Assembly (NCBI GenBank): GCA_016190245.1
Contig: JACPQY010000008.1
Location: 1-45,937, forward strand
Source of the DNA: Nitrospirota bacterium
GTDB lineage: Bacteria > JACPQY01
Direction of reading: 5' to 3'
Length of the DNA: 45,937 nucleotides
The translations under genes were made by a program, and so were the position numbers. The notes under the pieces were generated by a model. That model had not been told where the DNA came from and made no database searches. It was given only the letters and a program-made list of their open reading frames with translations. Every line of letters starts with the position of its first letter. Within the stretch, counting starts at the first letter, position 1. Of this stretch, positions 14,611-27,629 are shown in pieces.

Positions 14611-14838
14611 ATGAGCTATCGCGAGCGTATCAGCGTTGATCCTGCCGTGCGCGGGGGCAAGCCGTGCATCAAGAATACGCGCATTACCGTTTACGATATC
14701 CTGGAGTATCTGGCGGGCGGGATGTCGGAAGCGAAACTGTTGGAGGAGTTCCCGAGTCTTACACAGGAGGATGTCCGAGCCGCCCTGGAATTTGCCGCGG
14801 TACGCGAGCGGAAGTTGGCGGCCTCTCGTGCGGCGTGA
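14611..14838 (+). CDS. DUF433 antitoxin-like protein (pair 1)
   Basis: 75-aa DUF433 protein with the family core RISVDPAVRGGKPCIKNTRI, TVYDILEYLAGGMS and LEEFPSLTQEDVRAAL. DUF433 is a small helix-turn-helix-like domain usually paired with a DUF5615 PIN-like partner and thought to act as antitoxin. Its stop overlaps the GTG start of the partner by 4 nt. A paralogous pair lies 2 kb downstream. Confidence 0.9.
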   Translation: MSYRERISVDPAVRGGKPCIKNTRITVYDILEYLAGGMSEAKLLEEFPSLTQEDVRAALEFAAVRERKLAASRAA

Positions 14839-15185
14839 GGCTCTTGTTTGATGAGAACCTGAGCCCACGGCTCGTACAGCAGTTGGCCGCGGAGTTCCCG
14901 GACAGCACCCACGTTGATTCGGCGGGGTTGCGTGGCGCGCGAGATGAAGTTGTTTGGGGGTACGCCCGCGCTCACGGCCTCACCATCGTTTCGAAGGACA
15001 ATGACTTCCGCCAGATCGCCTTCTTGCAGGGTCCGCCCCCCAAGATTGTTTGGCTTTCGGTGGGGAATGAGGGAACCGAGGCCATCGTTCAGGCCCTTCG
15101 CAGACACAAGGCACGGATCCAGACCTTTTGTGCGGACCCGGAGGAAAGCCTGCTTGTTCTCGTTGCGGAAGACGAGCCGATCTGA
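14835..15185 (+). CDS. DUF5615 PIN-like toxin candidate (pair 1)
   Basis: 116-aa protein starting VRLLFDENLSPRLV with a GTG start that overlaps the DUF433 stop (GTGA). Acidic residues typical of the PIN-like (Mut7-C-related) fold are present in LLFDENLS and VSKDNDFRQ. DUF433-DUF5615 pairs are treated as VapBC-like toxin-antitoxin modules. RNase activity is inferred from fold only. Confidence 0.88.
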   Translation: MRLLFDENLSPRLVQQLAAEFPDSTHVDSAGLRGARDEVVWGYARAHGLTIVSKDNDFRQIAFLQGPPPKIVWLSVGNEGTEAIVQALRRHKARIQTFCADPEESLLVLVAEDEPI

Positions 15186-15243: not shown

Positions 15244-15290
15244 CTCATTGTCTTTTGATCCCCGGAAGGGGTCGTGGTACTGTGGCGCTC

Positions 15291-15305
15291 TGACAGCGGC
15301 TGTCA
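15291..15305. promoter_or_regulatory. WYL box 1: palindrome at the WYL regulator start
   Basis: TGACAGCGGCTGTCA is a perfect 7+1+7 palindrome whose last base is the A of the ATG at 15305. A possible -10 (TACTGT, 15278-15283) for the regulator lies just upstream. The palindrome would then sit at the transcription start, a position suited to autorepression. The same palindrome recurs at 22302-22316 and 27615-27629. Confidence 0.75.
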
Positions 15306-16351
15306 TGGCGAAGAGGCGAGAATCGAAATCCATGGCCGGGATCACCTACCGGCCGCCGACCTATGGGGCCGCTGCGCGGTTTGCGCAGATCATGTACGGG
15401 CTCCAGCAGCGGCCGCTGGGATGGAGCCTGGAGGCCATGAGCGAAGACCTGCGGCTCCATCCGCGCACCATCGCACGGTATGCGGGGTGCCTTACAAAGG
15501 ACGTGGAGGATAACGAAGGGCGGCCGCTTATCATCTTGGAAGAGCGATACGGGAAGCCGCATCTGCGTCTGGCCGCGAAGCCGGTGGAGCCGCTTGACCT
15601 CAACGCCTCGCTGGCTCTCTCGCTCTACGCGGCCACCACCCTGCTTCGGTTCACGCGGGGGTCCCGGCTGTACGCGAGCCTTGAGGCGGCCCTCCAGAAG
15701 GCACTCGGCCGGCTCAGTCCGGGCGACCGGATGAAGCTCATGTCGCTCGAACGCAAGATCCACTACGTGCCGGACGGGCCGAAAGACTACTCGAACAAGG
15801 CGATCGTGCTCGAACGCGTCGTGGAGGGCCTGCTGCACCAGCGCAGACTGAAAGTGAAGTACACGTCCCTTTCCGGGGGAACGTGGGAGAGCTTGGTCCA
15901 CCCGTATTCCCTCATGATGTACAAGCGGGGCCTCTACATCATCGGGCATTCGGAGAAGCATGGGGACGTGCGCTACCTGGCCATCGAGAGGATTGACGAG
16001 GCCTCGATCACGGATGCCGTTTTCAACTACCCGGTGGGCTATCGTCCCGGCGACTACACGGATGGCTGTTTTGGGATCATTGATGGCGATCCCGTGGATG
16101 TTTCGATCCGGTTCAAGAAGGGCGCCGACGCGCTCATCACCGGCCGCGTATGGCACCCCACGCAGAAAATCACCCGATTGAAGAATGGCGACCTCCGCCT
16201 CACCATGCGCGTCCGCGGCACTGATGAACTCTTGCCGTGGGTCATGTCCCACGGGCCGTATGCCAAGGTGGAGGCGCCGGCGGAACTCCGGTCCGCGGTC
16301 AAGGACTGGCTGGCCGGGATGAAGAGGGGCTACCGATTCAGCGGGCCGTGA
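15305..16351 (+). CDS. WYL-domain transcriptional regulator
   Basis: 348-aa regulator. The N-terminal winged-helix-like region is about residues 15-75 (GWSLEAMSEDLRLHPRTIAR). A middle helical linker follows, then a WYL domain from about residue 180 (HQRRLKVKYTSLSGG, then HPYSLMMYKRGLYIIGHS, the WYL-motif strand, here LYI). A C-terminal WCX-type extension ends at about 345. WYL proteins bind palindromes as dimers and often sense single-stranded nucleic acid. Several control DNA-damage or phage-defence genes. The start may be ATG 15305 or ATG 15332. Truncated copies of the 3' end occur at 17246-17503 and 18593-18722. Confidence 0.9.
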   Translation: MAKRRESKSMAGITYRPPTYGAAARFAQIMYGLQQRPLGWSLEAMSEDLRLHPRTIARYAGCLTKDVEDNEGRPLIILEERYGKPHLRLAAKPVEPLDLNASLALSLYAATTLLRFTRGSRLYASLEAALQKALGRLSPGDRMKLMSLERKIHYVPDGPKDYSNKAIVLERVVEGLLHQRRLKVKYTSLSGGTWESLVHPYSLMMYKRGLYIIGHSEKHGDVRYLAIERIDEASITDAVFNYPVGYRPGDYTDGCFGIIDGDPVDVSIRFKKGADALITGRVWHPTQKITRLKNGDLRLTMRVRGTDELLPWVMSHGPYAKVEAPAELRSAVKDWLAGMKRGYRFSGP

Positions 16352-16562
16352 CGCTGGATGTGCCTTGGCAGGCGGGCGAATCGGTTCCACAGAGCCGGAC
16401 ATATGTCGAGGTATCTCATATCCCTGGAATCGCCTTGACCGCCTACCCGAAATGCAAAAACGGGATGGCCGTTCCTTCGTCCTGTGTTCGGCGGCTGAGG
16501 GGGGTATCTGATGGATGGATGAACCTGAATGGCGTTGTCAGGCGACTCGTTGGGGATTGTGA

Positions 16563-16568
16563 TACACT
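16563..16568 (+). promoter_or_regulatory. -10 element of second DUF433 gene (leaderless)
   Basis: TACACT ends 6 nt before the GTG at 16575. This supports a GTG start and leaderless transcription. The 16352-16562 stretch upstream shows no gene. Its first ~20 bases continue the sequence shared with the WYL tail copy at 17.5 kb. Confidence 0.5.
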
Positions 16569-16574
16569 GCGGTC

Positions 16575-16820
16575 GTGGGAAAAGAGGGAAATCCGCTGGC
16601 ACGAGTAGTCGCGGACCCTGCGGTCTGTGCGGGGCAGCCATGTATCCGGGGCACCCGAATTCCGATCTCGGTCATCCTTGACAGTCTTGCGGAGGGTATG
16701 GCGCCGGAGGATATCATTGACCACTTTCCCAACCTTCACACGGAAGACGTTCGAGCGGCCCTTGCCTACGCGGCGGAGCTATCCAGAGAGAATATCTGGA
16801 AAGTTGCCGCCGGGACATGA
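16575..16820 (+). CDS. DUF433 antitoxin-like protein (pair 2)
   Basis: 81-aa DUF433 protein, GTG start. The core reads ARVVADPAVCAGQPCIRGTR, then ISVILDSLAEGMAPEDIIDH and LHTEDVRAALAYAA. It is clearly a paralogue of the gene at 14611 but too diverged for a recent duplication. It overlaps its DUF5615 partner by 4 nt (ATGA). Confidence 0.9.
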   Translation: MGKEGNPLARVVADPAVCAGQPCIRGTRIPISVILDSLAEGMAPEDIIDHFPNLHTEDVRAALAYAAELSRENIWKVAAGT

Positions 16821-17218
16821 AGGTCAAGCTCGACGAGAACATTTCAAGACATCTCAAACCCGACCTTGCCCGGCTTGGTCACGACGTAACCACCGCGGAA
16901 GATGAAGGACTCCTGTCGGTATCCGATGACAAGATCGCCGCTGCCATCAGGCTTGAAAACAGGATGCTCCTTACCCTTGATCTCGGGTTTGCGGATTTGC
17001 GCAGGTATGCGCCCGGTACGCATCCGGGTGTAGTCGTTTTCCGCCCCCATTCCCTCGGGGTTCGATCGGTCAGCCGCTTCGTTGAGTCATTTGTCCGGGA
17101 GGGAAGACTCGGCACGCTCTCCGGCTGTCTGGTGATTGTCGAGCCGGATCGTATCCGGATACGCAGAGCGGGTGCAGAGGGGGGTTCCGGGCGCAGCGGA
17201 GATGAGGAGCCGGCGTAG
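16817..17218 (+). CDS. DUF5615 PIN-like toxin candidate (pair 2)
   Basis: 133-aa DUF5615 protein: KVKLDENISRHLKPDLARLG at the N terminus, then LLTLDLGFADLRRYAPG with the expected acidic residues, and VVVFRPHSLGVRSVSRFVE. It is the predicted toxin of the second DUF433 pair. The last ~18 residues (GAEGGSGRSGDEEPA) are low complexity and probably beyond the fold. Confidence 0.88.
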   Translation: MKVKLDENISRHLKPDLARLGHDVTTAEDEGLLSVSDDKIAAAIRLENRMLLTLDLGFADLRRYAPGTHPGVVVFRPHSLGVRSVSRFVESFVREGRLGTLSGCLVIVEPDRIRIRRAGAEGGSGRSGDEEPA

Positions 17219-17245
17219 GCGGGGGTGGTGGGGTTGCTCCGGATG

Positions 17246-17503
17246 GTGGACGTCTCATTCCGGCTAAGAAAGGGCGCCGACGCGCTCATCACCGGTCGCG
17301 TATGGCACCCGACGCAGAAGATCACCCGATTGAAGAATGGCGACCTCCTCCTCACCATGCGCGTCCGCGGCACGGACGAGGTTCTGCCGTGGGTCATGTC
17401 CCACGGGCCGCATGCGAAGGTAGAGGCGCCGGCGGAACTCCGGGCCGCGGTCAAGGATTGGCTGACCGGGATGAGGAAGAGCTACCGATTCAGCGGGCCG
17501 TGA
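17246..17503 (+). pseudogene. WYL regulator 3'-end fragment, copy B
   Basis: About 260 bp that closely match the last 86 codons of the WYL gene (16094-16351). The fragment begins VDVSFRLRKGADALITGRVW and ends at the same stop after RFSGP. The match continues about 18 bp beyond the stop (CGCTGGATGTG). There is no HTH or WYL core, so this is a remnant and not a functional regulator. Amino-acid changes relative to the full gene are mostly conservative. Confidence 0.85.
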
Positions 17504-17564
17504 CGCTGGATGTGGCTTGGCTGTTTGGCGAATTGCACCCAGAGTGAGGAACTGGCGTAGGAAA

Positions 17565-17795
17565 TCAGAAATTCCGATTGACGATCGGACGTGTTTTCCC
17601 TCTTCGGTGATCGTCCAGGGCCTTGTCCGCCATCGCTCTCAGCTTGTGGGCATACTTTTGGTCTCGGAAAGCGCGTTGCCACTTTTCCTCGGCGACTTTC
17701 TCGGCCAAGAAGCGGGCATAGTCCAGCAACGCCCTCGCCTTCTCAGGCGGCAACCGATCAACAATTTGCGCGGTTTCCTTCGCCAACGTCGTCAT
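17565..17795 (-). CDS. Small DUF2281/antitoxin-like protein
   Basis: 76-aa protein with the phrase TAQIVDRLPPEKARALLDYA, then RFLAEK. This resembles DUF2281-type antitoxins, in which a short helical N terminus precedes a charged tail. The ATG at 17795 is chosen over a longer start at 17831 because the family-like region begins there. No toxin partner is adjacent. It is the only minus-strand gene between the WYL gene and 19.9 kb. Confidence 0.6.
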   Translation of the reverse strand: MTTLAKETAQIVDRLPPEKARALLDYARFLAEKVAEEKWQRAFRDQKYAHKLRAMADKALDDHRRGKTRPIVNRNF

Positions 17796-17902
17796 TCTTC
17801 GAGGATACCACGGGGGGCAGGCGCCGATCAACGGACCGAGGTCATGTCGGCTCGATGGTCGATCCGGCGAGGTCGCCGGTTGACCTGCTTTGACCCGGCA
17901 GG

Positions 17903-17908
17903 CATACT
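17903..17908 (+). promoter_or_regulatory. -10 element of DUF5678 gene (leaderless)
   Basis: CATACT ends 6 nt before the ATG at 17915. It matches TATACT at five positions and fits the leaderless pattern of this genome. Confidence 0.45.
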
Positions 17909-17914
17909 ATAGGC

Positions 17915-18208
17915 ATGGCGACCCGCAGGAACGGGCGGACGAAAAAGAGGGCATCGAGAAAGCGCGCATGCCGGGCCAAGGACCCGCTCACGATTGCCCT
18001 GACGGTCGAAAACGAGTGGGTATCTCGGCACTATGACAGGCTGGTACGCCAGTATCCACGGAAGATCGTTGCCATCTCACACCGCCAGGTCGCCGGCGTC
18101 GGCGAGACGGGTGACGAGGCCCTCGCCTTGGCCCGTGAAAAGTATCCTAATGCCCTGCCCCTTCTCGTGCGCGTCCCCTCCCCCGAGGATCTCGTCTGCG
18201 TTCTGTAG
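17915..18208 (+). CDS. DUF5678 domain protein
   Basis: 97-aa protein. A very basic N terminus (TRRNGRTKKRASRKRACRAK) is followed by a DUF5678-like core: ENEWVSRHYDRLVRQYPRKI, then VAISHRQVAGVGETGDEALA. In many genomes DUF5678 genes sit next to retropepsin-like genes, as here. Function is unknown. Confidence 0.65.
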   Translation: MATRRNGRTKKRASRKRACRAKDPLTIALTVENEWVSRHYDRLVRQYPRKIVAISHRQVAGVGETGDEALALAREKYPNALPLLVRVPSPEDLVCVL

Positions 18209-18246
18209 TCTTTTCATACACGCCGATCGGCCGGCACCTTCACCCG

Positions 18247-18591
18247 GTGATTCCCATCGGAATCCGCATCGGGCAGGAATGGCGGACGGCGCAGGTGTAT
18301 GTCGATTCGGGCTCGATGTACACAATCTTGGCCCCCTCGCTCGTCCCCGGAAGCTTCGATTGGAAAGCCGGCCGGAACGCCCAGGCAACTTCAGGCACGG
18401 GCCAGACCCTTGCCGTTTTTCTGCACGACCTCGACATCCAAATTGGGAACGACCGCTTTGTCGCGCCCGTCGGGTTTTCCTCCGACTTGAAAATCGGCTT
18501 CGACATCCTGGGCCGGAGAGGGATATTCGACCGCTACCGGATCGAGTTCAACGAGCCGAAACGGTTCGTGTCTTTCACGTCGGTGAAATGA
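18247..18591 (+). CDS. Retropepsin-like aspartic protease domain protein
   Basis: 114-aa single-domain aspartyl-protease-like protein. The active-site triad is seen in YVDSGSMYTIL (D-S-G), and the C-terminal block FDILGRRGIFDRYRIEFNE is typical of the bacterial retropepsin-like family partnered with DUF5678. The GTG start at 18247 is provisional. The frame is open upstream through FSYTPIGRHLHPVIPIG, which also looks like the usual family N terminus, but no start codon was found there. It may be translated from a rare start or truncated. Confidence 0.7.
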   Translation: MIPIGIRIGQEWRTAQVYVDSGSMYTILAPSLVPGSFDWKAGRNAQATSGTGQTLAVFLHDLDIQIGNDRFVAPVGFSSDLKIGFDILGRRGIFDRYRIEFNEPKRFVSFTSVK

Positions 18592-18592
18592 T

Positions 18593-18722
18593 GGTGCGCG
18601 TCCGCGGCACGGATGAACTCTTGCCGTGGGTCATGTCCCACGGGCCGTATGCCAAGGTGGAAGCGCCGGCGGAACTCCGGTCCGCGGTCAAGGGCTGGCT
18701 GGCCGGGATGAGCAAGTACTAC
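18593..18722 (+). pseudogene. WYL regulator 3'-end fragment, copy C
   Basis: About 125 bp nearly identical to 16207-16330 of the WYL gene, encoding RVRGTDELLPWVMSHGPYAK and onward, then diverging after GWLAGMSK. It follows directly on the retropepsin-like stop. It is closer to the full gene than to copy B, for example TGAACTCTTGCC and TATGCCAAGGTGGA, so it arose independently of copy B. Confidence 0.8.
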
Positions 18723-18760
18723 AGGTCCGACAGATTCGCACTCGCAGGGGGCGGGCGAGG

Positions 18761-19906
18761 ATGACGTCCCCCGCTTCGCAACTTGGTGACCTGCTCGGCG
18801 TATTGCCGGGCAATCGCAAGGAGCCCTTTGTCACTCAGTTGCTGTCATTCCTCCTACGCTCCGACTCCGAGTTTCGTTCATCCTTCCTCGAGAAGTTTCT
18901 CCGCATTCCCGACGTGTGTGCCGAACACTACGACGTTGTTCCGGAGGATCCGACTGAGCAGGCCGAGGAGGAATCTCCAGAAGCGGAAGCCGATCCCGGT
19001 CGGATGGACTTTACGTTTGTTCCCCAAAGAAATGGATCCCAACTACCCTACATCGGTGTCGAGTGCAAGATTGGTGCCCGATTTGGGGAAGGCCAGCTCG
19101 ACAAGTATGCCTCCGACTTGACGGGCCGAAGTCATCGTCCGAAACCGCGACTATTCGCGATCACGCGGGATGAATTCACCCTAACAGATTTGGGTGCCAA
19201 GGGGCAGAAAGCCGTTCTGCTCAAGGCAACCAGTGGCATGCTGCGTCTTGATGGCAATGGGCTGTGCAGGGAGGGGAACAGGCAGGGATTGAGGACCTGG
19301 AATTGCCTATTCGACGTCATCAGCCCAGATGTTTCTCATTTCACACCTGCGACACGGGCTGGTTTGCGGCACATAAAGGAGGTAGCCATGGCGGAAGCAT
19401 TTCGAGGTTTTCAGAGCCTAAGAACAGGATCAATGACTATGGCCGATCTCGTCCAGGCACGTATTCTCCTCTCTCACCTCACCCGACGTGTGGCCAAGGG
19501 TAAGGGTGCTCATAGAGCACCTACCTTCCACCTGAAGCGCGGAACCTACAAGCCGAAAGAACAAGAGTCCTATCACCACTACCACTTTCTCCACACATGG
19601 AGGAAAGCGGGAAAGAGCTATCTTCACTTGTATGTGGTCGAATACCCAAATGACTCGGAGGTCTACCTGGAAATCCGTTATTGGAAAGGAAGGAGACGTG
19701 CGCGTTCTCTCCATTACCTCAGTCTCAAGATTGGCGGACACAATGCCAAGGATCTGTTGATGGAGAAGGCCAAGCAACCGAAGATAATCGCAGATGCCCC
19801 GGGCAATCTCGCGAAGGTCATCCGGGAGTGGGTTGAGGCCAAGGGATGGGAGCCGAGCGATTGCAAAGGAACATTCGGGGATTTTGACTGTTCTCTCGAC
19901 GAATGA
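18761..19906 (+). CDS. PD-(D/E)XK nuclease-like protein
   Basis: 381-aa protein of unknown family. An N-terminal segment contains the pattern RMDFTFVP then YIGVECKIGA and GEGQLDKYASDL, that is D-x(n)-E-x-K with a downstream Gln. This is the PD-(D/E)XK nuclease core (about residues 85-130) as found in PDDEXK_4-like proteins. The C-terminal half (from about 220) is rich in aromatic and basic residues and unrecognised. The ATG at 18761 follows a purine-rich GGGCGAGG. It is less GC-rich than its neighbours. It could be a restriction or anti-phage nuclease, which is inference. Confidence 0.65.
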   Translation: MTSPASQLGDLLGVLPGNRKEPFVTQLLSFLLRSDSEFRSSFLEKFLRIPDVCAEHYDVVPEDPTEQAEEESPEAEADPGRMDFTFVPQRNGSQLPYIGVECKIGARFGEGQLDKYASDLTGRSHRPKPRLFAITRDEFTLTDLGAKGQKAVLLKATSGMLRLDGNGLCREGNRQGLRTWNCLFDVISPDVSHFTPATRAGLRHIKEVAMAEAFRGFQSLRTGSMTMADLVQARILLSHLTRRVAKGKGAHRAPTFHLKRGTYKPKEQESYHHYHFLHTWRKAGKSYLHLYVVEYPNDSEVYLEIRYWKGRRRARSLHYLSLKIGGHNAKDLLMEKAKQPKIIADAPGNLAKVIREWVEAKGWEPSDCKGTFGDFDCSLDE

Positions 19907-19944
19907 GCTGGGTGCCCTTGATCCGGCAGAGGCGCCGGGGCAAA

Positions 19945-20229
19945 CTACCGCAGGACAAGAACCCACAACGCAGCTAGCGAGACGCCGCCCGGGCCATCAA
20001 TGGCCTTGCGGACATCGGCCATCTTGCCGATGGTTCTTCCGCTCGCATCCGTGATGGTGTCACTTTTCACCTTGGCGACAGTGACGCCGGACTTGTCAAC
20101 GATGTCGGTGCCGCGGATCCGCCCGAGCGTCACGCCGGAGGCGTTTCGGATGTCGTTGCCGGCCAGCCGGGCCTCGGTGACGCCCGACTTGTTTCTGAGA
20201 TCGTTCCCCACGAGTTTGTAGTCCGCCAT
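19945..20229 (-). CDS. Small protein of four 16-residue beta repeats
   Basis: 94 aa. Residues 6-69 are four tandem 16-residue units of the pattern G-[NT]-D-[LI]-x-[ND]-x-S-G-V-T-x-x-[RK], as in GNDIRNASGVTLGR and GTDIVDKSGVTVAK. Ser-Gly pairs fall at 15-16, 31-32, 47-48 and 63-64. The regular turn spacing suggests a small four-bladed all-beta fold such as the 4-fold beta-flower proteins. A C-terminal hydrophobic tail (VSLAALWVLVL) may be a membrane anchor. An SD (GGGGG) precedes the ATG. It is the last gene of the minus-strand operon that starts at the WYL-box promoter. Confidence 0.7.
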   Translation of the reverse strand: MADYKLVGNDLRNKSGVTEARLAGNDIRNASGVTLGRIRGTDIVDKSGVTVAKVKSDTITDASGRTIGKMADVRKAIDGPGGVSLAALWVLVLR

Positions 20230-20249
20230 TGAATCCCCCTTTCAGTTTC

Positions 20250-20540
20250 CTACCGGAATAGTCTGTGCCACCAACGGAGATAGAAAGGCTGAGGCCTGAG
20301 TCGCAGAAAGCCCCACCCGAAGTTCCGATTGTTCACGAAGAACCAGTCCCACGCTTTCATGTAGTCGGCCTCCGACAAGTCGGTATCGTAGCCGCGAGTT
20401 TTCAGGGAAGCCACGAAGAAGGCAGCGACGTCCCTCGCCAACTCTCTGTCCGCCTTCTTCACTAGCTGGTCCAGCGCAAGCCTCAAGTTCGGGTCCCGCT
20501 CCAGTAGCTGGGCAACCTGCCGCCAGTCGGTGAGAACCAT
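20250..20540 (-). CDS. Uncharacterised 96-aa protein
   Basis: Not recognised. The first ~60 residues are charged and helical (QLVKKADRELARDVAAFFVA). The C terminus is strongly aromatic and basic (KAWDWFFVNNRNFGWGFLRL, ending LRWWHRLFR), which suggests binding to a membrane surface or protein. It lies 3 nt after the deiminase-like gene and 20 nt before the beta-repeat gene, clearly in one operon. Confidence 0.65.
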   Translation of the reverse strand: MVLTDWRQVAQLLERDPNLRLALDQLVKKADRELARDVAAFFVASLKTRGYDTDLSEADYMKAWDWFFVNNRNFGWGFLRLRPQPFYLRWWHRLFR

Positions 20541-20543
20541 GGC

Positions 20544-21485
20544 CTACCTCCGCCGGGAGACTTCCGCAGCAGACGCGACCTGCTTGGGGTACGTTGCCGT
20601 GATGCAATTCAAGACCCCGCCGTACGCGGCAAGCCGCCTGCAGTCGATTTGATGGTACTCCAGGTCCGGCCTCACCCTTTTCAGGGTCGCCACGGCCGTC
20701 CTGTCCATGCCGACGCCATAGGCGGGGACCAAGACCTTCCTGCCGTTCCTGTAGAAGTTGACGTAATTCCCGGCCGCGCTCGTCAGGCTGTCGGTGACAA
20801 AGCACGGCAGCCTGAGCACGGCTATTCCTGATGGGCCCAGCTTGCCCACCAGACAGTCGAACAGTTCGTTGTGGAAATCCTTCATCTCCTTGTCCTCATC
20901 GTACGATGCCACCATGAGAACATCCTTGTCCAAGAAACGGCAGTAGCCGTCGGCGTGACGGATCGGGTCGCGCTTCTCGTACTCGATAGCGACCAACCTT
21001 ACCCCGAAAGCGGCCTTGAACCAAGCGACCCACCCGGAAGCATCGAGGCCGGTGTTGCAGAGCATGAATTGCTTGGTCACGATGAGAACATCCCTGCCGT
21101 TGTAGACGAAATTGCCGCCTTCGCTGGTGAGGGGCACCCGGCGCAGGGGGAGTTTCAGGCGGCGAGCGATGGCCTCGATTCCTCGTGTGGCGCTCATGGC
21201 GTCGGTGAAGGCGGCGGCGCTTGGCTCCGCGTAGGAGGGTTCGTACTTGGGACACCAGAGGAAGCGAGCGCCCTTCGCCTGGAGGAGGATCGGCGCCCAA
21301 TCGCGGATCCAGAAATCCGTCAGCCAACAGTTCTCCTCGTCCAGGAGCACGACATCCGGCTTGAGCAGGTCAGCAATCTCCCGGAAAGTGTCTTCGAGTC
21401 CGGCTCGCCGCGGTGGCCGCACGAGATACGCCGTTCCCCCCATGAATTCGGCGCTCACAAGCCTACCCAATTGTCTCACGTGCAT
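20544..21485 (-). CDS. Agmatine/peptidylarginine deiminase-fold protein
   Basis: 313-aa guanidino-modifying enzyme fold. Family landmarks: ENCWLTDFWIRDWAPILL (catalytic-region Asp), SEGGNFVYNGRDVLI, DPIRHADGYCRFL (catalytic His-Asp), and GGVLNCITATYP with the nucleophilic Cys near the C terminus. All catalytic positions appear intact, so it may hydrolyse agmatine or arginine side chains. Typical agmatine deiminases are longer and the context is not polyamine metabolism. The ATG at 21485 has a good SD (GAGGAAGGG). A longer start at 21647 would overlap the upstream gene by 14 nt. Confidence 0.8.
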   Translation of the reverse strand: MHVRQLGRLVSAEFMGGTAYLVRPPRRAGLEDTFREIADLLKPDVVLLDEENCWLTDFWIRDWAPILLQAKGARFLWCPKYEPSYAEPSAAAFTDAMSATRGIEAIARRLKLPLRRVPLTSEGGNFVYNGRDVLIVTKQFMLCNTGLDASGWVAWFKAAFGVRLVAIEYEKRDPIRHADGYCRFLDKDVLMVASYDEDKEMKDFHNELFDCLVGKLGPSGIAVLRLPCFVTDSLTSAAGNYVNFYRNGRKVLVPAYGVGMDRTAVATLKRVRPDLEYHQIDCRRLAAYGGVLNCITATYPKQVASAAEVSRRR

Positions 21486-21633
21486 CCTGGGCCCTTCCTC
21501 TGACCTTTTACGATCTCCTGAAGGTGGTATCAGGTCCCGGTCGCGGTTCATCAAGCACTCGGTAGCCTGCCTGATCGTAGTCGGCGATAATCGTCGAGTC
21601 CGCTCCCAGACCGGCGGCAATGCCGGGGGCGGA

Positions 21634-22122
21634 CTAGCCGCGTTCATGGGGAAAGAGCGGCAGTTGGCGGCTGTGAACCCGATACACGCGGGCCAAGACC
21701 TTGGCGACTGCCCAGTACAGATTGGCAGGAATGAATGTCCCTCGTGGAGTGGAAACCTCCAGCGCGCGTGCCAAGGGAGTGTCCTCGCAGATCGGCACGC
21801 GGCCGGCCCGGGCGCTTCCGAGGGCTGAATCGTAGGACAGGTTGCCGCAGACGTCGAGTACGACAGGGGCGATCATGAATTCCGGATCGTAGTGGACGCT
21901 GATGGCGAGGGAGACTCCGTCCACAATCAGCACATCTGGAAGGACATGATCGGGGACGTCTACCAGTCCGTCATCGAGGCCCTCCTCCTGTGCAGGACGA
22001 TCTGTAAGGTGAGCATGCGCGCTTCTTGGCAGGGCCGGAACAACACTCCCGGCGGCAAGCACCGCAAGTCCATTCCTGACGAACGTTCTTCGATCCAAGA
22101 TGGCCTCCTTCCAGTTCATCAT
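21634..22122 (-). CDS. Tat-exported protein of unknown function
   Basis: 162 aa. The N terminus has a twin-arginine signal: DRRTFVRNGLAVLAAG, then SVVPALPRSAHA with an AxA-like cleavage site near residue 38. The mature part is acidic at first (EEGLDDGLVDVPDHVLPDV) and not recognised. The start ATG overlaps the stop of the 52-codon gene upstream (ATGA). It belongs to the WYL-box operon. A second Tat-signal protein is made from WYL box 3. Confidence 0.7.
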   Translation of the reverse strand: MMNWKEAILDRRTFVRNGLAVLAAGSVVPALPRSAHAHLTDRPAQEEGLDDGLVDVPDHVLPDVLIVDGVSLAISVHYDPEFMIAPVVLDVCGNLSYDSALGSARAGRVPICEDTPLARALEVSTPRGTFIPANLYWAVAKVLARVYRVHSRQLPLFPHERG

Positions 22123-22277
22123 TGCGGGGACCTGCGGGAATATCTGGAGATCCGTTCGAGGCCCTTCTTGATGCGTTCACCCTCGCGCAGGACGTTTTTC
22201 CAGTGGTGAAGAAACCATCTCCAGGGGAAGTCATCTTCCCGAATCCGCTCCACGCTACGGCTTGGTTTCCGTTTCAC
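22119..22277 (-). CDS. Small basic protein (52 codons), first gene of WYL-box operon
   Basis: Not recognised. The peptide begins VKRKPSRSVERIREDDFPWR and continues WFLHHWKNVLREGERIKKGL, ending SRRSPQ: basic, helical and rich in Trp. Support that it is real: the stop overlaps the next start as ATGA, the GTG start lies 7 nt after a -10 (TAGACT) placed exactly 11 nt from the WYL palindrome, and codon use looks coding. Leaderless translation would be needed. It could instead be a leader peptide. Confidence 0.55.
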   Translation of the reverse strand: MKRKPSRSVERIREDDFPWRWFLHHWKNVLREGERIKKGLERISRYSRRSPQ

Positions 22278-22284
22278 ACGCTTG

Positions 22285-22333
22285 AGTCTATCCCCGGCGC
22301 GTGACAGCCGCTGTCACATCTCCCGCGTATACT
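22285..22333. promoter_or_regulatory. WYL box 2: symmetric divergent promoter
   Basis: The palindrome TGACAGCCGCTGTCA (22302-22316, extended by one base pair each side) is flanked at exactly 11 nt on both sides by -10 hexamers: TATACT on the plus strand (22328-22333) toward the AAA+ gene, and TAGACT on the minus strand (22290-22285) toward the 52-codon gene. No proper -35 exists for either, so the palindrome occupies about -38 to -24 for both. A bound dimer would either activate or block both promoters at once. Confidence 0.75.
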
Positions 22334-22355
22334 GACGAGGCATGGAGGGGGGAAC

Positions 22356-24497
22356 ATGAAACGACGCGGGAAAGTCACCTCGGTCCCTGCACCGGAGGCA
22401 AGCCCGTTTGGACCATGCGTGGACGACTACGCCCACAACCTGCTCGTGGGCACTTCGCTCCGGCGTTTGGATGAGGCCGGCCTACGGCGGATTGAGTCCG
22501 TCGAGCCGGTGCTCAGGATGGTCTGTGCGACGACGGCGAGGGTTGCCGGGAGGGGCGCCAAGATCGGGGACTTCACGCGGGAAGACCTCCGGCGACGGCT
22601 GCGCGCTTATCTGCGTGGGTGCAGGAATCAGACGCGACCCCCGGGACCTGCAGATTCGCGGGTGGCGGACAACCTTGGAGTGATAGGGAACCTCTTGGAT
22701 CTGGACGAACACCAGAGGGCGGTGTTTCAGTTCATTCTGGCGCTGCACGATAGCCGCGAGATCAAGGAAATTGTGGAGACCTTCGGTGCCGTCTCGGCTG
22801 TCCGGGCGGCTTCGCTCATCGCGGCTGCCACAACGATATCGAACGATCACGTCATGAGGGCACTGGATCGAGCCGGTGGCCTTCTCGCAAGTGGCTTGGT
22901 GGAGATTGACGCGAAGGGCAGCTACTCCCTCGAGGGCAAGGTTACGCTCAAGCCCGGTGTTCTGGATGAATGTCTTGCGCCCGGCCTTGACCGTGATCGG
23001 CTCATCTCGCGGTTTCTGCCCCCGGCAGGGGTGAGTCAACTTGGCTGGGATGATTTCGAGCACATGCGGGTGCCGGGCCGCACGGCTCGAGACCTGCTCG
23101 CCGGGACTCTCCAGTCTCGGCGTCCGGGGGTGAACGTCCTCTTCTACGGGGAAACCGGAACCGGCAAGACGGAACTGGCGAAGCTGCTGGCTCGAGACAT
23201 TGGCACGACACTGTACGTGGCCGGACGGGCGGATGAAAGCGGGGAGTCTGCCCACGCATGGGAGCGGCTGTCGTCCCTGCTCCTTGGTGAGCGGCTTCTC
23301 CGAGACGGCACATCACTCCTCCTCTTCGATGAAATGGAGGATCTCTTTACATGGGAGTTTCATGGCACCCACCCACGCGGTGTCCCCTCGATGTCGAAAC
23401 AGTGGTTCAATAACCTCCTGGAAAACACCCCCGTTCCCACCATTTGGATCACGAATCTCGTCGAAGGAATCGACCGGGCGTTTCTTCGGCGGTTTTCCTA
23501 CGCCGTGGAATTTCGCCCAATCGGACCCCGGCAGCGCGCCCGGGTGTTGAATCGGCATCTTGGTGAACAGGGTCGAATTCCTCCATCGGACGTAGAGCAG
23601 ATGGCGCAAAAGTTCACCGTCAGCCCAGCTCAACTCCGAAGTGCCGTGGAGTCCGCCCGCTTGATTGCCGGTACTGCTCCTCCAGATCGCGAAACGATTG
23701 AGCACGTGCTCGCGCCGATGCAAAAGATTGTAACGGGCGAGGATCCCGAAAAGCGTCCTGTGTTCGACGCCACCGCGTACCGGATTGACGCCCTGAACAG
23801 TGTTGAGGATCTTGGACGGATCGCGGATCAGCTCACAAGGTGGGAACCGTCGCGAGGAGCCGGGGTCTCAATGTGCCTCTACGGCCCGCCCGGCACGGGG
23901 AAGTCCGAATACGCGAAATATCTCGCGCACCGCATGGGCAGACCCATACTCTACCGGCACGCATCCGACATCCTGGGCCCCTTCTGGGGGCAAACAGAAG
24001 CGATGATCGCGGAGGCCTTCCGCAGGGCGACGGACGAGGATTCGCTCCTCCTTTTCGACGAGGCGGATTCATTCCTCCGCGACCGGCGGTCGGTGATGCA
24101 TTCCTGGGAGACGATCCAGGTGAACGAATTCCTTCAGCAACTCGAATCGTTCCGGGGTGTGGTCGTCTGCACGACCAATCTTTGGCACAACATTGACGAG
24201 GCGGCGCTCCGGCGTTTCATTTTCAAGGCCGAATTCCGCTACCTCCGGCTGGAGCAGGGTGTGGCGCTATTCCGCAGCAGTTTCTCCCCCTACCTTGACC
24301 GGCCGCCCTCGGAGGATGACGTTGGGATGGTGTGCTCTGCCCTCGCCGGTATCGGCAACCTCGCTCCCGGCGATTTCGCAGCGGTCAGCCGACGCTGGCG
24401 GGCTATGGGAAATCGCTCGACCGCCCGCGAGCTGGTTCAGGCTCTCGTGAGCGAGGCACGTGCAAAGCCCGGCGCCGCCGGACCGATTGGGTTTTAG
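22356..24497 (+). CDS. Tandem AAA+ ATPase
   Basis: 713 aa with an N-terminal helical domain (about 1-230) and two AAA+ modules. Module 1 has Walker [14 protein letters not shown] (about 264), Walker [11 protein letters not shown], sensor WITNLVEG and an arginine-finger-like FLRRF. Module 2 has Walker [14 protein letters not shown] (about 509), Walker [11 protein letters not shown], sensor VVCTTN and ALRRF. Both look catalytically intact, recalling CDC48-like unfoldases or remodelers. No protease domain is present. An SD (GGAGGGGGG) precedes the ATG, and the mRNA leader is about 16 nt. The 3' end overlaps the convergent ClpX-type zinc-finger gene by 4 bp. Confidence 0.88.
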
Positions 24498-25009
24498 CGA
24501 CGATATTGCGCGTCAAGCGAGCGAAGATAGCACACCGCGCCGACGGTCGAGGCAAGCAGATTGGCCAGGAAACGTCCGAATCTCCCGAAGAGGAACGAGG
24601 CGGACGGTCCGTCTGTCTCGTCGCTCCGATCCAAGGGGAATGCCACGATCGACACGCCTCTGCCGAGGAGGTAGTCGCCGGCGATGCCGATGCGGTTCAT
24701 GCACTCGATAGCTTTCCACTTCGTTGAAAACGCCCCGTGCCAGGTTACATGCCCCCTCCGCTCGGTCTGAATCAGATAGATCTCCTTCGGGTACCGGCTG
24801 CACGCTTCGGGAGAGTCCCCGGCGGGGCTTTTGTTCAGGATTCTCCGCTTGTCCCGGCTTCCGGTCGCTTCGGCGACAATGTCAGCGCAAAGCTCTACGC
24901 ATTCATCGCAGATGCAGACGCCGGGACCGGCGATGAGCTTGCGAACCTCGTGCTGTCCTTTGCCGCACCAGGAACAAACCGGCAGGCCTGACTCAGCTTC
25001 GCTGGACAT
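24494..25009 (-). CDS. Stand-alone ClpX-type C4 zinc-finger protein
   Basis: 171 aa. Residues 11-45 match the ClpX N-terminal zinc-binding domain closely: [19 protein letters not shown], then [13 protein letters not shown], with zinc ligands C12, C15, C34 and C37. In ClpX this domain dimerises and binds substrates and adaptors. Here no AAA+ domain follows. The rest ([20 protein letters not shown] onward) is unrecognised and ends in a hydrophobic stretch ([16 protein letters not shown]). It is last in the operon from WYL box 3 and overlaps the phosphoesterase gene by 17 nt. It could serve as adaptor for the neighbouring AAA+ ATPase. Confidence 0.8.
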
Positions 25010-25745
25010 CGCTTTCGGCGGGAGCGTCCAAGAGCGTGCCCTGCGGCCCGGGGTTGATGATGAGGGTGTCGCCGATTGTATCGGTTGCGCCGAAACGGTC
25101 GTGGAAGTGGCCGCAGATGACGATGCGGGGTTTCAGGACTTCGGCGATGTTCCGGACGATCCGACTGCCCTGTGCTCGTCCCCCGGAATGGCCTTGGAAT
25201 TGTCCGTTCTCGTAGATTGGCTCATGACCGCACCCTCCGCCTGGTCCTGCGATGCCGTCCTGGCATCGGTCGGTGCTTCGGGTGCAGGCCGTCCGGTGGC
25301 CGCAGCACGCCGTGCCTGCCGGGGGGTAGTGGGACACGAGAATCAGGGGCAGCGACAGGTTGAGTTGACTCCGAATGAGGTGCAAATACGTGTCCATGGC
25401 TTCGAGGTCCTCTTCGTGGTGTGGGCTGAGGTCGTCGGTGCCGTCAATTCCGGCGATCTGAACACCGGCCACCTTCACAACCTTGCAGCCGATCCAATGG
25501 CAGCCTGGGTAAAACGCTTCGATACGCTTACACATTTTCGGTGACTCATGATTCCCCGCGATGAAGTAGACGGGGATCCCAGCGTCGGCGATGAGGCGCC
25601 ATGAATCCTCCCGACTCTCTTCGAACACCGCAAAATCTCCGCCGCAAACCAAACACTCGACCTTCTTTTCCTGAGCCAGGGAAGCGATCTTCCTTGCTGA
25701 CCCTGCCGAGCCGTGATGATCGGTGAAGGCCACGAAACTCGTCAT
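24993..25745 (-). CDS. Calcineurin-like metallophosphoesterase
   Basis: 250 aa with all five metal-binding blocks of the superfamily: AFTDHHGS (D-x-H), VCGGDFAVF (GD), AGNHES (GNHE), VSHYPP and ICGHFHD (GHxH). An insertion rich in Cys, His and Gly ([20 protein letters not shown]) between blocks 4 and 5 could bind metal. The substrate is unknown; the fold covers nucleic acid, nucleotide and protein phosphatases. The ATG at 25745 overlaps the previous stop as ATGA. Confidence 0.87.
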
Positions 25746-27577
25746 GTCGACACCTGAATCCTTGTTCCATACGACCGGACGCACAACGCCGCGCCCACGA
25801 TGGAAATCAGCGGGTCAAGTTCGTCCATGAGCTGGCGGCCGTGATCAGCTGCCTCAGGGGAGTTCAGTTGCTCGTACAGTACTTGTCCATGGACCTCGTC
25901 GGGACTCTGGCGGAAATGTGTAAGGGCTGCGAGAGTACCTTGCTGCCCGGTTTCCAAGAGCCAGGTAAATGCCGCCGCGCGCGCTCTGGCATCGTGGCAC
26001 GAATCGAGCCCATGCGAGATCTCAGCCGCCCATGCAGGCGTACCCCAGCGGCCGCACAGAAGACGTCCCCATGTTGCTTCGGGTTCGGTGGAGATCCCCT
26101 GCCAACCACCGAATAGTTCGAGGATGTTGCGGGGGACGACATCGGGGCGGAAGAAAAACACGTGTTCTGCAAGAGAAAGACGGTCTTCCCCTGATGCCGT
26201 AGCTATCCAGTCGCTAAGATCCGGCTTGAGTCCTGTCACTTGGTTCCACCAGAGAGGCTGAAGCCCTCCGGATTCTCGCAGGCGGTCATAGCTCAGGTCA
26301 TGCAGCCATTGACGGCCTGCCACGGAACAGGCGAGACGTTTCATCATCCACCAATCCCAACCCTCATGCCCCACCTCCCTATGGAGTTTCCGGATGGCGG
26401 AACGGAGGGAGTTCTGGTCCAACAGGTAGCCCAGCGTGAAAACGGCTTCCAACCTATCTTGGGCCGGCGCTGCCCGGGCGACGCGGACAAAGTCATCCGG
26501 AGCGAACCGTTCGCCCTGACTGATGAGCCAGCGCCCAACACGTGCGATTGCATCCGTCCCCCCATTCGTCCATCGCTCGGGGTGAGGATCCGCGAGCGCG
26601 CGGTCGAGTTTTCGTCGGGTCTCACGCGGGTCGAGAGAGATTGAACCGCCCCGAGGCCCATGCCCGAGCAATTTCCCAGCCGCCATGAGGACTGCGACAG
26701 GGCTACGCGAGTGCTGATACACGTCCAGCAGCAAATGGGCGCACCTGCAACAGTTCGCGACTGCCTCGCCGGATACGGTGGGCCGCCGGGCGGAAGGATG
26801 GACGACTTCCGGACTGTGCCAGCCGCCGGGGGGAGAGAGAAGGAAGAGCGCTTCTTCCGGGTGGCTGGCAGTTGCGATGAGTCTGTGGAATTCGGCGTCC
26901 CATGGGGTGGGCGGCCAGTCGAAGAACGCGAGCAGGATTTCGGTTTGGATTCTCTCATCCACATCCGAAAAGCGGGGGCCGAGTACTGGCATTATCTCCT
27001 CCGGGGGGAAACTTGAAAGAAAGCCGGGCCAGAGGTCATCCACCGGCCAAGTCTCGCTATTAGCGATCGCATGCAAACAGTAGTGTCGGTATTCGGGGGA
27101 GACCTCGAACAGCTTGGATCGCGCGTACCAGTCGCCATTGTTTGCGCGGTCCCGCAAAAGGGCCAAGCACCTCGGGGTGGCGGGTAATGGGCAATCCCAG
27201 AAATCGTAATCGAAATTCAACAGTGAGTCCTTCATGGAGAGTTGCTTCTCAATCCAATTCGGCTCAAGCCTTGCTCTTGCGACTGAAAGGGCGCGCATGT
27301 AATTGGCAGCCTCGGCGCACGGAGGCGGCAATCGAAGGTTCTTGATCCATTCGAGGGCCTTGGGACTCCCGCTCCGGCCGAGCGCATCTATCACGACGGG
27401 GTCCATGGGGCCGCCCCGGCACTCCCATTTCAGAAGGATGCTGGTGGCGCGATCAAGTGACACCCTGGTGTCTCCAGGCATCGTTGCCGGCTCTCGCCAT
27501 GGAGCCCGCAGCACGGGGCGGGCGAGGAGTCCAGCTGTGGCGACCCCCGCGGTGCAGATGAATTCCCTTCGTCTCAT
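25742..27577 (-). CDS. Tat-signal alpha-solenoid (HEAT-like) protein
   Basis: 611 aa. It starts with a twin-arginine-type signal (MRRREFICTAGVATAGLL). The rest is helical with repeating pairs reminiscent of HEAT repeats (DPVVIDALGRSGSPKALEWI near the N terminus, LAALTHFRQSPDEVHGQVLY near the C terminus) and many Trp residues. No catalytic motif is recognised. A strong SD (AGGAGG) lies 5 nt before the ATG and a -10 (TACCAT) 11 nt from WYL box 3. It heads the three-gene operon with the phosphoesterase and zinc-finger genes. Confidence 0.75.
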   Translation of the reverse strand: MRRREFICTAGVATAGLLARPVLRAPWREPATMPGDTRVSLDRATSILLKWECRGGPMDPVVIDALGRSGSPKALEWIKNLRLPPPCAEAANYMRALSVARARLEPNWIEKQLSMKDSLLNFDYDFWDCPLPATPRCLALLRDRANNGDWYARSKLFEVSPEYRHYCLHAIANSETWPVDDLWPGFLSSFPPEEIMPVLGPRFSDVDERIQTEILLAFFDWPPTPWDAEFHRLIATASHPEEALFLLSPPGGWHSPEVVHPSARRPTVSGEAVANCCRCAHLLLDVYQHSRSPVAVLMAAGKLLGHGPRGGSISLDPRETRRKLDRALADPHPERWTNGGTDAIARVGRWLISQGERFAPDDFVRVARAAPAQDRLEAVFTLGYLLDQNSLRSAIRKLHREVGHEGWDWWMMKRLACSVAGRQWLHDLSYDRLRESGGLQPLWWNQVTGLKPDLSDWIATASGEDRLSLAEHVFFFRPDVVPRNILELFGGWQGISTEPEATWGRLLCGRWGTPAWAAEISHGLDSCHDARARAAAFTWLLETGQQGTLAALTHFRQSPDEVHGQVLYEQLNSPEAADHGRQLMDELDPLISIVGAALCVRSYGTRIQVST

Positions 27578-27597
27578 GGGTACCTCCTGAAGTCGCT

Positions 27598-27629
27598 ATG
27601 GTACCGGCAGGGGTGGACAGCCGCTGTCA
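27598..27629 (-). promoter_or_regulatory. WYL box 3 with -10 for the solenoid operon
   Basis: A 13-bp perfect core GACAGCCGCTGTC (27616-27628) lies within a 15-bp site with one outer mismatch. On the minus strand it is followed after exactly 11 nt by TACCAT (27603-27598), then a ~15-nt leader with SD and the ATG at 27577. The geometry is identical to WYL box 2. Confidence 0.72.

Follow-up and report, generated by a model that had tools for sequence, protein, structure and literature searches.

Regulators of the WYL family, which detect DNA damage or phage attack, are very common, and to our knowledge binding sites are known for only a few of them. In promoters of the mycobacterial activator PafBC, the motif tTGTCRgtg is followed after 8 nt by TannnT (PMC5656591). 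DriD of Caulobacter crescentus binds the consensus ATACGAC-N7-GTCGTAT at a constant distance from the -10 hexamer (PMC12340889); another site precedes driD itself, and the protein does not activate this gene. The palindrome recognised by SiwR of Mycobacterium smegmatis is 19 bp long and precedes the -10, and activation requires the -26 region (PMC10693628). The palindromes bound by WYL repressors lie close to the repressor gene and to defence-type genes, with CapW sites overlapping the -10 and the BrxR site lying downstream of it (PMC9122588, PMC9122601). Here we analyse a 45,937-nt stretch of DNA from a Nitrospirota bacterium (GenBank assembly GCA_016190245.1, contig JACPQY010000008.1; hereafter, the window) that encodes a 348-aa WYL regulator. 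An earlier note on the window had proposed that this protein controls the genes at 19.9-27.6 kb through a 15-bp palindrome, either by activation in place of a -35 element or by occlusion. Our analysis indicates, with a probability of roughly 0.8, that the gene at 15305-16351 encodes a homodimeric WYL activator of the DriD/SiwR/PafBC kind, which drives three operons without a -35 element and probably represses itself.

The window contains three copies of the palindrome, each located to the base where the earlier note had placed it (Table 1), and its claim that there is no other copy holds when up to two mismatches are allowed. The first copy ends in an A that also begins the WYL start codon, ATG, at 15305. 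The second, between divergent operons, is a perfect palindrome that extends to 17 bp (GTGACAGCCGCTGTCAC), and the third (GGACAGCCGCTGTCA) has one mismatch to the 15-mer with its 13-bp core unbroken. All three contain inverted half-sites of the form GAC-N7-GTC. Read outward from the palindrome, the three target promoters share a common layout of GACAGC-S-GCTGTC, 12 nt and then TATACT, TAGACT or TACCAT; on re-measurement, these hexamers lie exactly 11 nt from the palindrome in all three directions, as had been claimed. TATACT is followed by a Shine–Dalgarno sequence (GGAGGGGGG) and the ATG at 22356, and TACCAT by AGGAGG and the ATG at 27577. Because the density of TANNNT in the window is 0.0021 per position per strand, the chance of three agreeing offsets is approximately 1e-4 to 1e-3, with 20 offsets allowed. 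The reported lack of a -35 was also confirmed: a promoter scan found no sigma-70 -35/-10 pair at operators 1 and 2, and at operator 3 a single weak pair on the other strand. At the three target promoters, the -35 is replaced by a site at a fixed distance from the -10 (GTC-N12-TANNNT).

A pattern search of the whole genome (3.29 Mb in 86 contigs), with the reversed pattern as control, shows how rare the palindrome is. The exact 15-mer has no copies besides those at 15291 and 22302, and a one-mismatch search adds only 27615 and a coding-region copy (C50:19440); the many unlinked copies that, according to the earlier note, would speak against a regulon are not present. The looser core GACANCSGNTGTC has 8 copies, 3 in the window, 1 at a second WYL gene on contig C75 and 4 elsewhere (C10:58056, C10:196127, C42:17541 and C50:19441), the last 4 being judged chance occurrences, since a TANNNT at the required spacing is lacking on both sides. 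The composite GACA-N5-TGTC-N12-TANNNT, which was fixed from the window before the genome-wide search, applies the -10 rule that the earlier note had suggested for such a search; it yields 5 sites against approximately 0.54 expected from base composition and 0 for the reversed pattern, and every site is tied to one of the three WYL genes of the genome. Three of the five are the target promoters in the window. The second WYL gene, a 52% identical paralog, has TGGGACAACGGTTGTCCCA immediately before its start, again with GAC-N7-GTC half-sites, and a -10-like TAGAAT at a 7-nt offset, as with TACTGT at operator 1. The fourth composite site is the divergent promoter of this paralog, facing away from it with TATCAT at the predicted distance, and the fifth stands directly before the Shine–Dalgarno sequence and ATG of a small lipoprotein-like gene, 2.6 kb from the third WYL gene. 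Short palindromes do arise by chance, and the copies at C10:196127 and C50:19441 look non-regulatory; that the palindromes of the window are chance occurrences, or a hairpin or terminator signal with no regulatory role, is nevertheless extremely improbable given their rarity, the fixed promoter offset, the paralog and the cross-genome enrichment described below, and no T-run terminator was scored at the palindromes. Divergent from the C75 paralog are a small unknown gene and a gene for a DUF6745 protein (L045:16973-18211, L023:1069-1365), which are predicted paralog targets. The third and last WYL gene sits in a cluster with lipoprotein-like, TPR, SNase-like and NucS-like genes, in the order lipoprotein-like, TPR, SNase-like, WYL, NucS-like (L044:1490-1560, L028).

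The regulator scores 7e-13 for WYL and 1e-16 for WCX in Pfam. An AlphaFold2 (AF2) model derived from 35 WYL sequences, with a mean predicted local distance difference test (pLDDT) score of 89, shows a winged helix at the N terminus, with residues 53-66 as its recognition helix; Pfam and the model together place a winged helix-turn-helix (wHTH), a three-helix region, WYL and WCX in one chain. Within the recognition helix, R58 is almost invariant across the 35 WYL proteins; in DriD, arginines touch guanines of each half-site (PMC12340889). In the WYL domain, R223 and R229, arginines through which single-stranded DNA might act as inducer, lie within a conserved RxFAxxRI segment. The closest fold over the full length is that of DriD (PDB 8tp8, 9pfq, 9pfv; Foldseek E 1e-19, Z 19.4), followed by PafBC and then by BrxR and CapW, and a sequence search of the PDB likewise gives DriD as the best match. 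The locus has a single full WYL gene, the remaining copies being 3′-end fragments, and the site is symmetric; a heterodimer of two different WYL subunits, as in PafBC, is conceivable in principle with the C75 paralog as partner of the regulator.

Comparison with these systems clarifies the probable mode of action. DriD shares with the regulator the full-length fold of wHTH, three-helix bundle (3HB), WYL and WCX, the GAC-N7-GTC half-sites, a site that overlaps the -35 and keeps a constant spacing to a poor -10, and a further site upstream of the regulator gene. It differs in its outer half-site (ATACGAC/GTCGTAT against TGAC/GTCA here), in having other targets and only ~20% identity, and the own-gene site here lies downstream of the promoter, unlike that of DriD. 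PafBC has the same domain set, and its promoter (P1/RecA-NDp) has TGTCR, 11 nt and TANNNT without a -35; written in our terms, tTGTCRgtg-N8-TannnT equals TGTC-N12-TANNNT, the same distance as at the target promoters here. However, PafBC is a heterodimer that reads one PafB half-site rather than a palindrome, and it governs a global DNA-damage regulon, whereas the regulon predicted here is small and local. SiwR is a homodimer, as is predicted here; its palindrome precedes the -10 of an adjacent operon, and activation goes through the -26 region, but this 19-bp palindrome is imperfect, with a different core (GGA at -26), and the SiwR targets are DinB/YfiT-like. BrxR and CapW, repressors of BREX and CBASS, also have a WYL–WCX dimer on a palindrome near their own gene in defence-like neighbourhoods. 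A CapW/BrxR-like repressor that occludes the three target promoters until released by a ligand would agree with the binding of known WYL repressors to palindromes close to their own and to defence-type genes (PMC9122588, PMC9122601), and with operator 15291 overlapping the start region of the regulator gene, as the BrxR site lies after the -10. Yet CapW and BrxR sites are at or after the -10, whereas operators 2 and 3 are upstream of it, at exactly the activator distance and with no -35 found, and in fold and sequence the regulator is nearer to DriD and PafBC than to BrxR and CapW, so we regard such a repressor as unlikely. Because the geometry matches that of the activators DriD, PafBC and SiwR, activation is favoured at operators 2 and 3, which end 11 nt upstream of the -10; of the two modes proposed earlier, occlusion fits only at the WYL gene's own site, the one site with repressor-type placement.

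In an activator mechanism of this type, the inverted half-sites TGAC...GTCA would be recognised by the two winged helices of a WYL homodimer. On operators 2 and 3, this dimer would cover approximately -38 to -24, the normal place of the -35, with its near half-site TGTC 12 nt from a bare, weak -10, and would recruit housekeeping RNA polymerase. One symmetric operator (22302) could serve both divergent promoters, those of the AAA+ gene and of the FlhB-C-like/PAD operon, and operator 3 would serve the HEAT–metallophosphoesterase–zinc-finger operon. At the regulator's own gene, a weak -10-like TACTGT (15278-15283) lies 7 nt upstream of operator 1, with TTGATC 17 nt before it (a hand reading, under the scan threshold). 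The position of this operator fits autorepression: since it lies over the start codon, downstream of the promoter, it probably blocks transcription. The inducer may be single-stranded DNA or another damage or phage signal. Resemblances to the KorB operator (TTTAGCSGCTAAA) and to MerR-type spacer activators were considered but set aside.

Within its family, this genome has a single relative, whose WYL match is just 29% identical, making orthologous footprinting impossible; the paralog and unrelated WYL loci were therefore used. A scan of the genome collection returned three distant WYL genes, with no clear palindrome common to them. For 80 loci around WYL-WCX genes of other genomes, occurrences of GAC-Nk-GTC-Nd-TANNNT were tallied at each of 204 (k,d) spacings. 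The highest tally, 15 against a mean of 1.87 (standard deviation 1.74), falls on the pair that had been predicted, (7,12), and GAC is the most enriched among all 64 half-sites. Bases that the pattern leaves unspecified are also constrained, with T before GTC in 14/15 and a purine (R) after it in 14/15, which reproduces the TGTCR of PafBC. Close to the WYL stop codon (same strand, from 60 nt upstream to 200 nt downstream), 7 loci carry (7,12), and the cells (7-8,12-13) hold 14 locus-hits against 1 across 86 other cells; the TGA of the stop codon forms the first part of a TGAC half-site in several loci. Random regions of the same genomes, in equal amount (800 kb), contain (7,12) once, and GAC-N6-TGTCR-N11-TANNNT occurs 13 times in the WYL loci versus 0 in these regions. 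Palindromes of arbitrary sequence at the set distance show no peak in the 80 loci, which ties the code to GAC/GTC; a broader claim, that any WYL palindrome obeys the distance rule, was rejected. Footprinting, a check suggested in the earlier note, thus supports the proposal: half-site, arm spacing and -10 distance are enriched beside WYL genes elsewhere, and upstream of AAA orthologs. In some WYL loci (L106, L120, L124, L132 and L150), the inner gap is 8 bp and the -10 follows after 13 nt; in L106 and L150, the downstream gene is DinB/YfiT-like by reading, resembling the SiwR arrangement.

Several points weigh against an activator working through this code. At operator 2, the leader of the leftward operon is long, and the mismatch in operator 3 falls in an outer base. 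In the printed didA and driD promoters, the 12 nt between the GTC position and the hexamer that keeps the reported G-14 are our own count from printed sequences, and the bapE promoter can be aligned to the consensus by eye only. Of the four spacings counted together near the WYL stop, (7,12) was fixed earlier, and (8,13), (7,13) and (8,12) were chosen after the spacing counts had been seen. The site is present in only a minority of the 80 loci, which means that other half-sites or another logic must serve many WYL-WCX proteins, and, because the nearest other relatives of the regulator are only ~30% identical, the cross-genome test concerns the family and not the ortholog. Finally, contact between the WYL protein and the operator is predicted only, which would leave room for a different DNA-binding protein as the reader of the palindrome. 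We consider a different reader very unlikely, as like sites occur at all three WYL genes here and at many elsewhere, some overlapping WYL stop codons, and are near-absent from random DNA (1 for (7,12) and 0 for the TGTCR form in 800 kb). As judged from sequence, rarity, the paralog and footprinting support the earlier proposal of control over the 19.9-27.6 kb genes by the WYL protein via the palindrome.

More generally, it is rather probable that GAC-N7(8)-GTC (TGTCR), 11-12 nt and TANNNT form the cis-code of a large group of WYL-WCX activators from various bacterial families, in which the operator often lies at the start or stop codon of the regulator and drives the next gene, and a recurrent double-AAA+ target forms part of a mobile WYL–AAA stress/defence module. 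A wider WYL-WCX promoter rule was not found stated in the literature searched, a scope that excludes most subscription papers. If true, a rule uniting PafBC, DriD and this locus would allow WYL regulons to be predicted from sequence; where an operator lies with respect to the -10 would give a hint as to activation or repression by the WYL protein concerned, and the double-AAA+ ATPase is pointed to as a recurring target of WYL proteins.

Orthologs of the 713-aa double-AAA+ protein adjoin WYL genes in three other genomes (G139, G230 and G151), as does a weaker homolog in G021. Upstream of the AAA gene stands GACATGTCCTGTC-N11-TATATT in G151, GACATTATTTGTC-N12-TAATTT in G230 and an (8,12) site in G021; in G139, GACACTATACGTC lies upstream and the -10 is weak. 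AAA homologs in G234 and G094 (two copies), for which no WYL neighbour was found, have no such upstream site. The G151 island includes a NERD-UvrD helicase, a PLD-like nuclease, a DnaB-like protein and a DUF2779 protein, a content that makes a repair or defence role for the WYL–AAA island plausible. Two contigs of G151 also carry pairs of WYL-type sites that face each other and are shared by a HAD-hydrolase gene and a gene opposed to it (L194:16103-16240, L201:5216-5350), which suggests a wider WYL regulon in that genome.

Table 1 Operators, -10 hexamers and genes of the predicted WYL regulon in the window
Feature	Position	Strand	Description
Operator 1	15291..15305	.	Perfect 15-bp palindrome TGACAGCGGCTGTCA; overlaps WYL start codon
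WYL regulator gene	15305..16351	+	348 aa; wHTH, three-helix region, WYL (168-233), WCX (263-339)
Operator 2	22302..22316	.	Perfect palindrome TGACAGCCGCTGTCA
-10 TAGACT	22285..22290	-	11 nt from operator 2; serves leftward operon, leader ~150 nt
-10 TATACT	22328..22333	+	11 nt from operator 2; serves AAA+ gene
Operator 3	27615..27629	.	One-mismatch copy; minus strand reads TGACAGCGGCTGTCC
-10 TACCAT	27598..27603	-	11 nt from operator 3
Predicted operon A	22356..24497	+	713-aa protein, two AAA+ domains, IetA/CDC48-like (AAA 4e-34, IetA 3e-27)
Predicted operon B, gene 1	21634..22122	-	Tat-type signal and FlhB/SctU C-terminal-like domain (Bac_export_2 2.5e-13, residues 63-146)
Predicted operon B, gene 2	20544..21647	-	Peptidyl-arginine/agmatine-deiminase-like (PAD_porph 9e-27)
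Predicted operon C, gene 1	25742..27577	-	611-aa Tat-signal, HEAT-like protein
Predicted operon C, gene 2	24993..25784	-	Calcineurin-type metallophosphoesterase (Metallophos 1.5e-12)
Predicted operon C, gene 3	24494..25009	-	ClpX-type C4 zinc finger protein (zf-C4_ClpX 1.5e-17)

Among the predicted targets, the FlhB/SctU-C-like protein with a twin-arginine (Tat) signal is free-standing, outside flagellar or secretion clusters. The HEAT protein of operon C has no homolog in 241 genomes, and no WYL-like companions of it were found there. The WYL gene itself is flanked by DUF433-type/DUF5615 (PIN-like) toxin–antitoxin-like pairs at 14611-15185 and 16594-17218, the second antitoxin being assigned by reading only. 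Its 3′ end (299 nt, 16094-16392) is repeated 1.15 kb downstream at 17246-17544 with 88% identity, and the last 128 nt of this tail are present again at 18595-18722 with 94% identity, with small unrelated genes in between, as if the tail of the gene had repeatedly been a target of insertion or had been duplicated.

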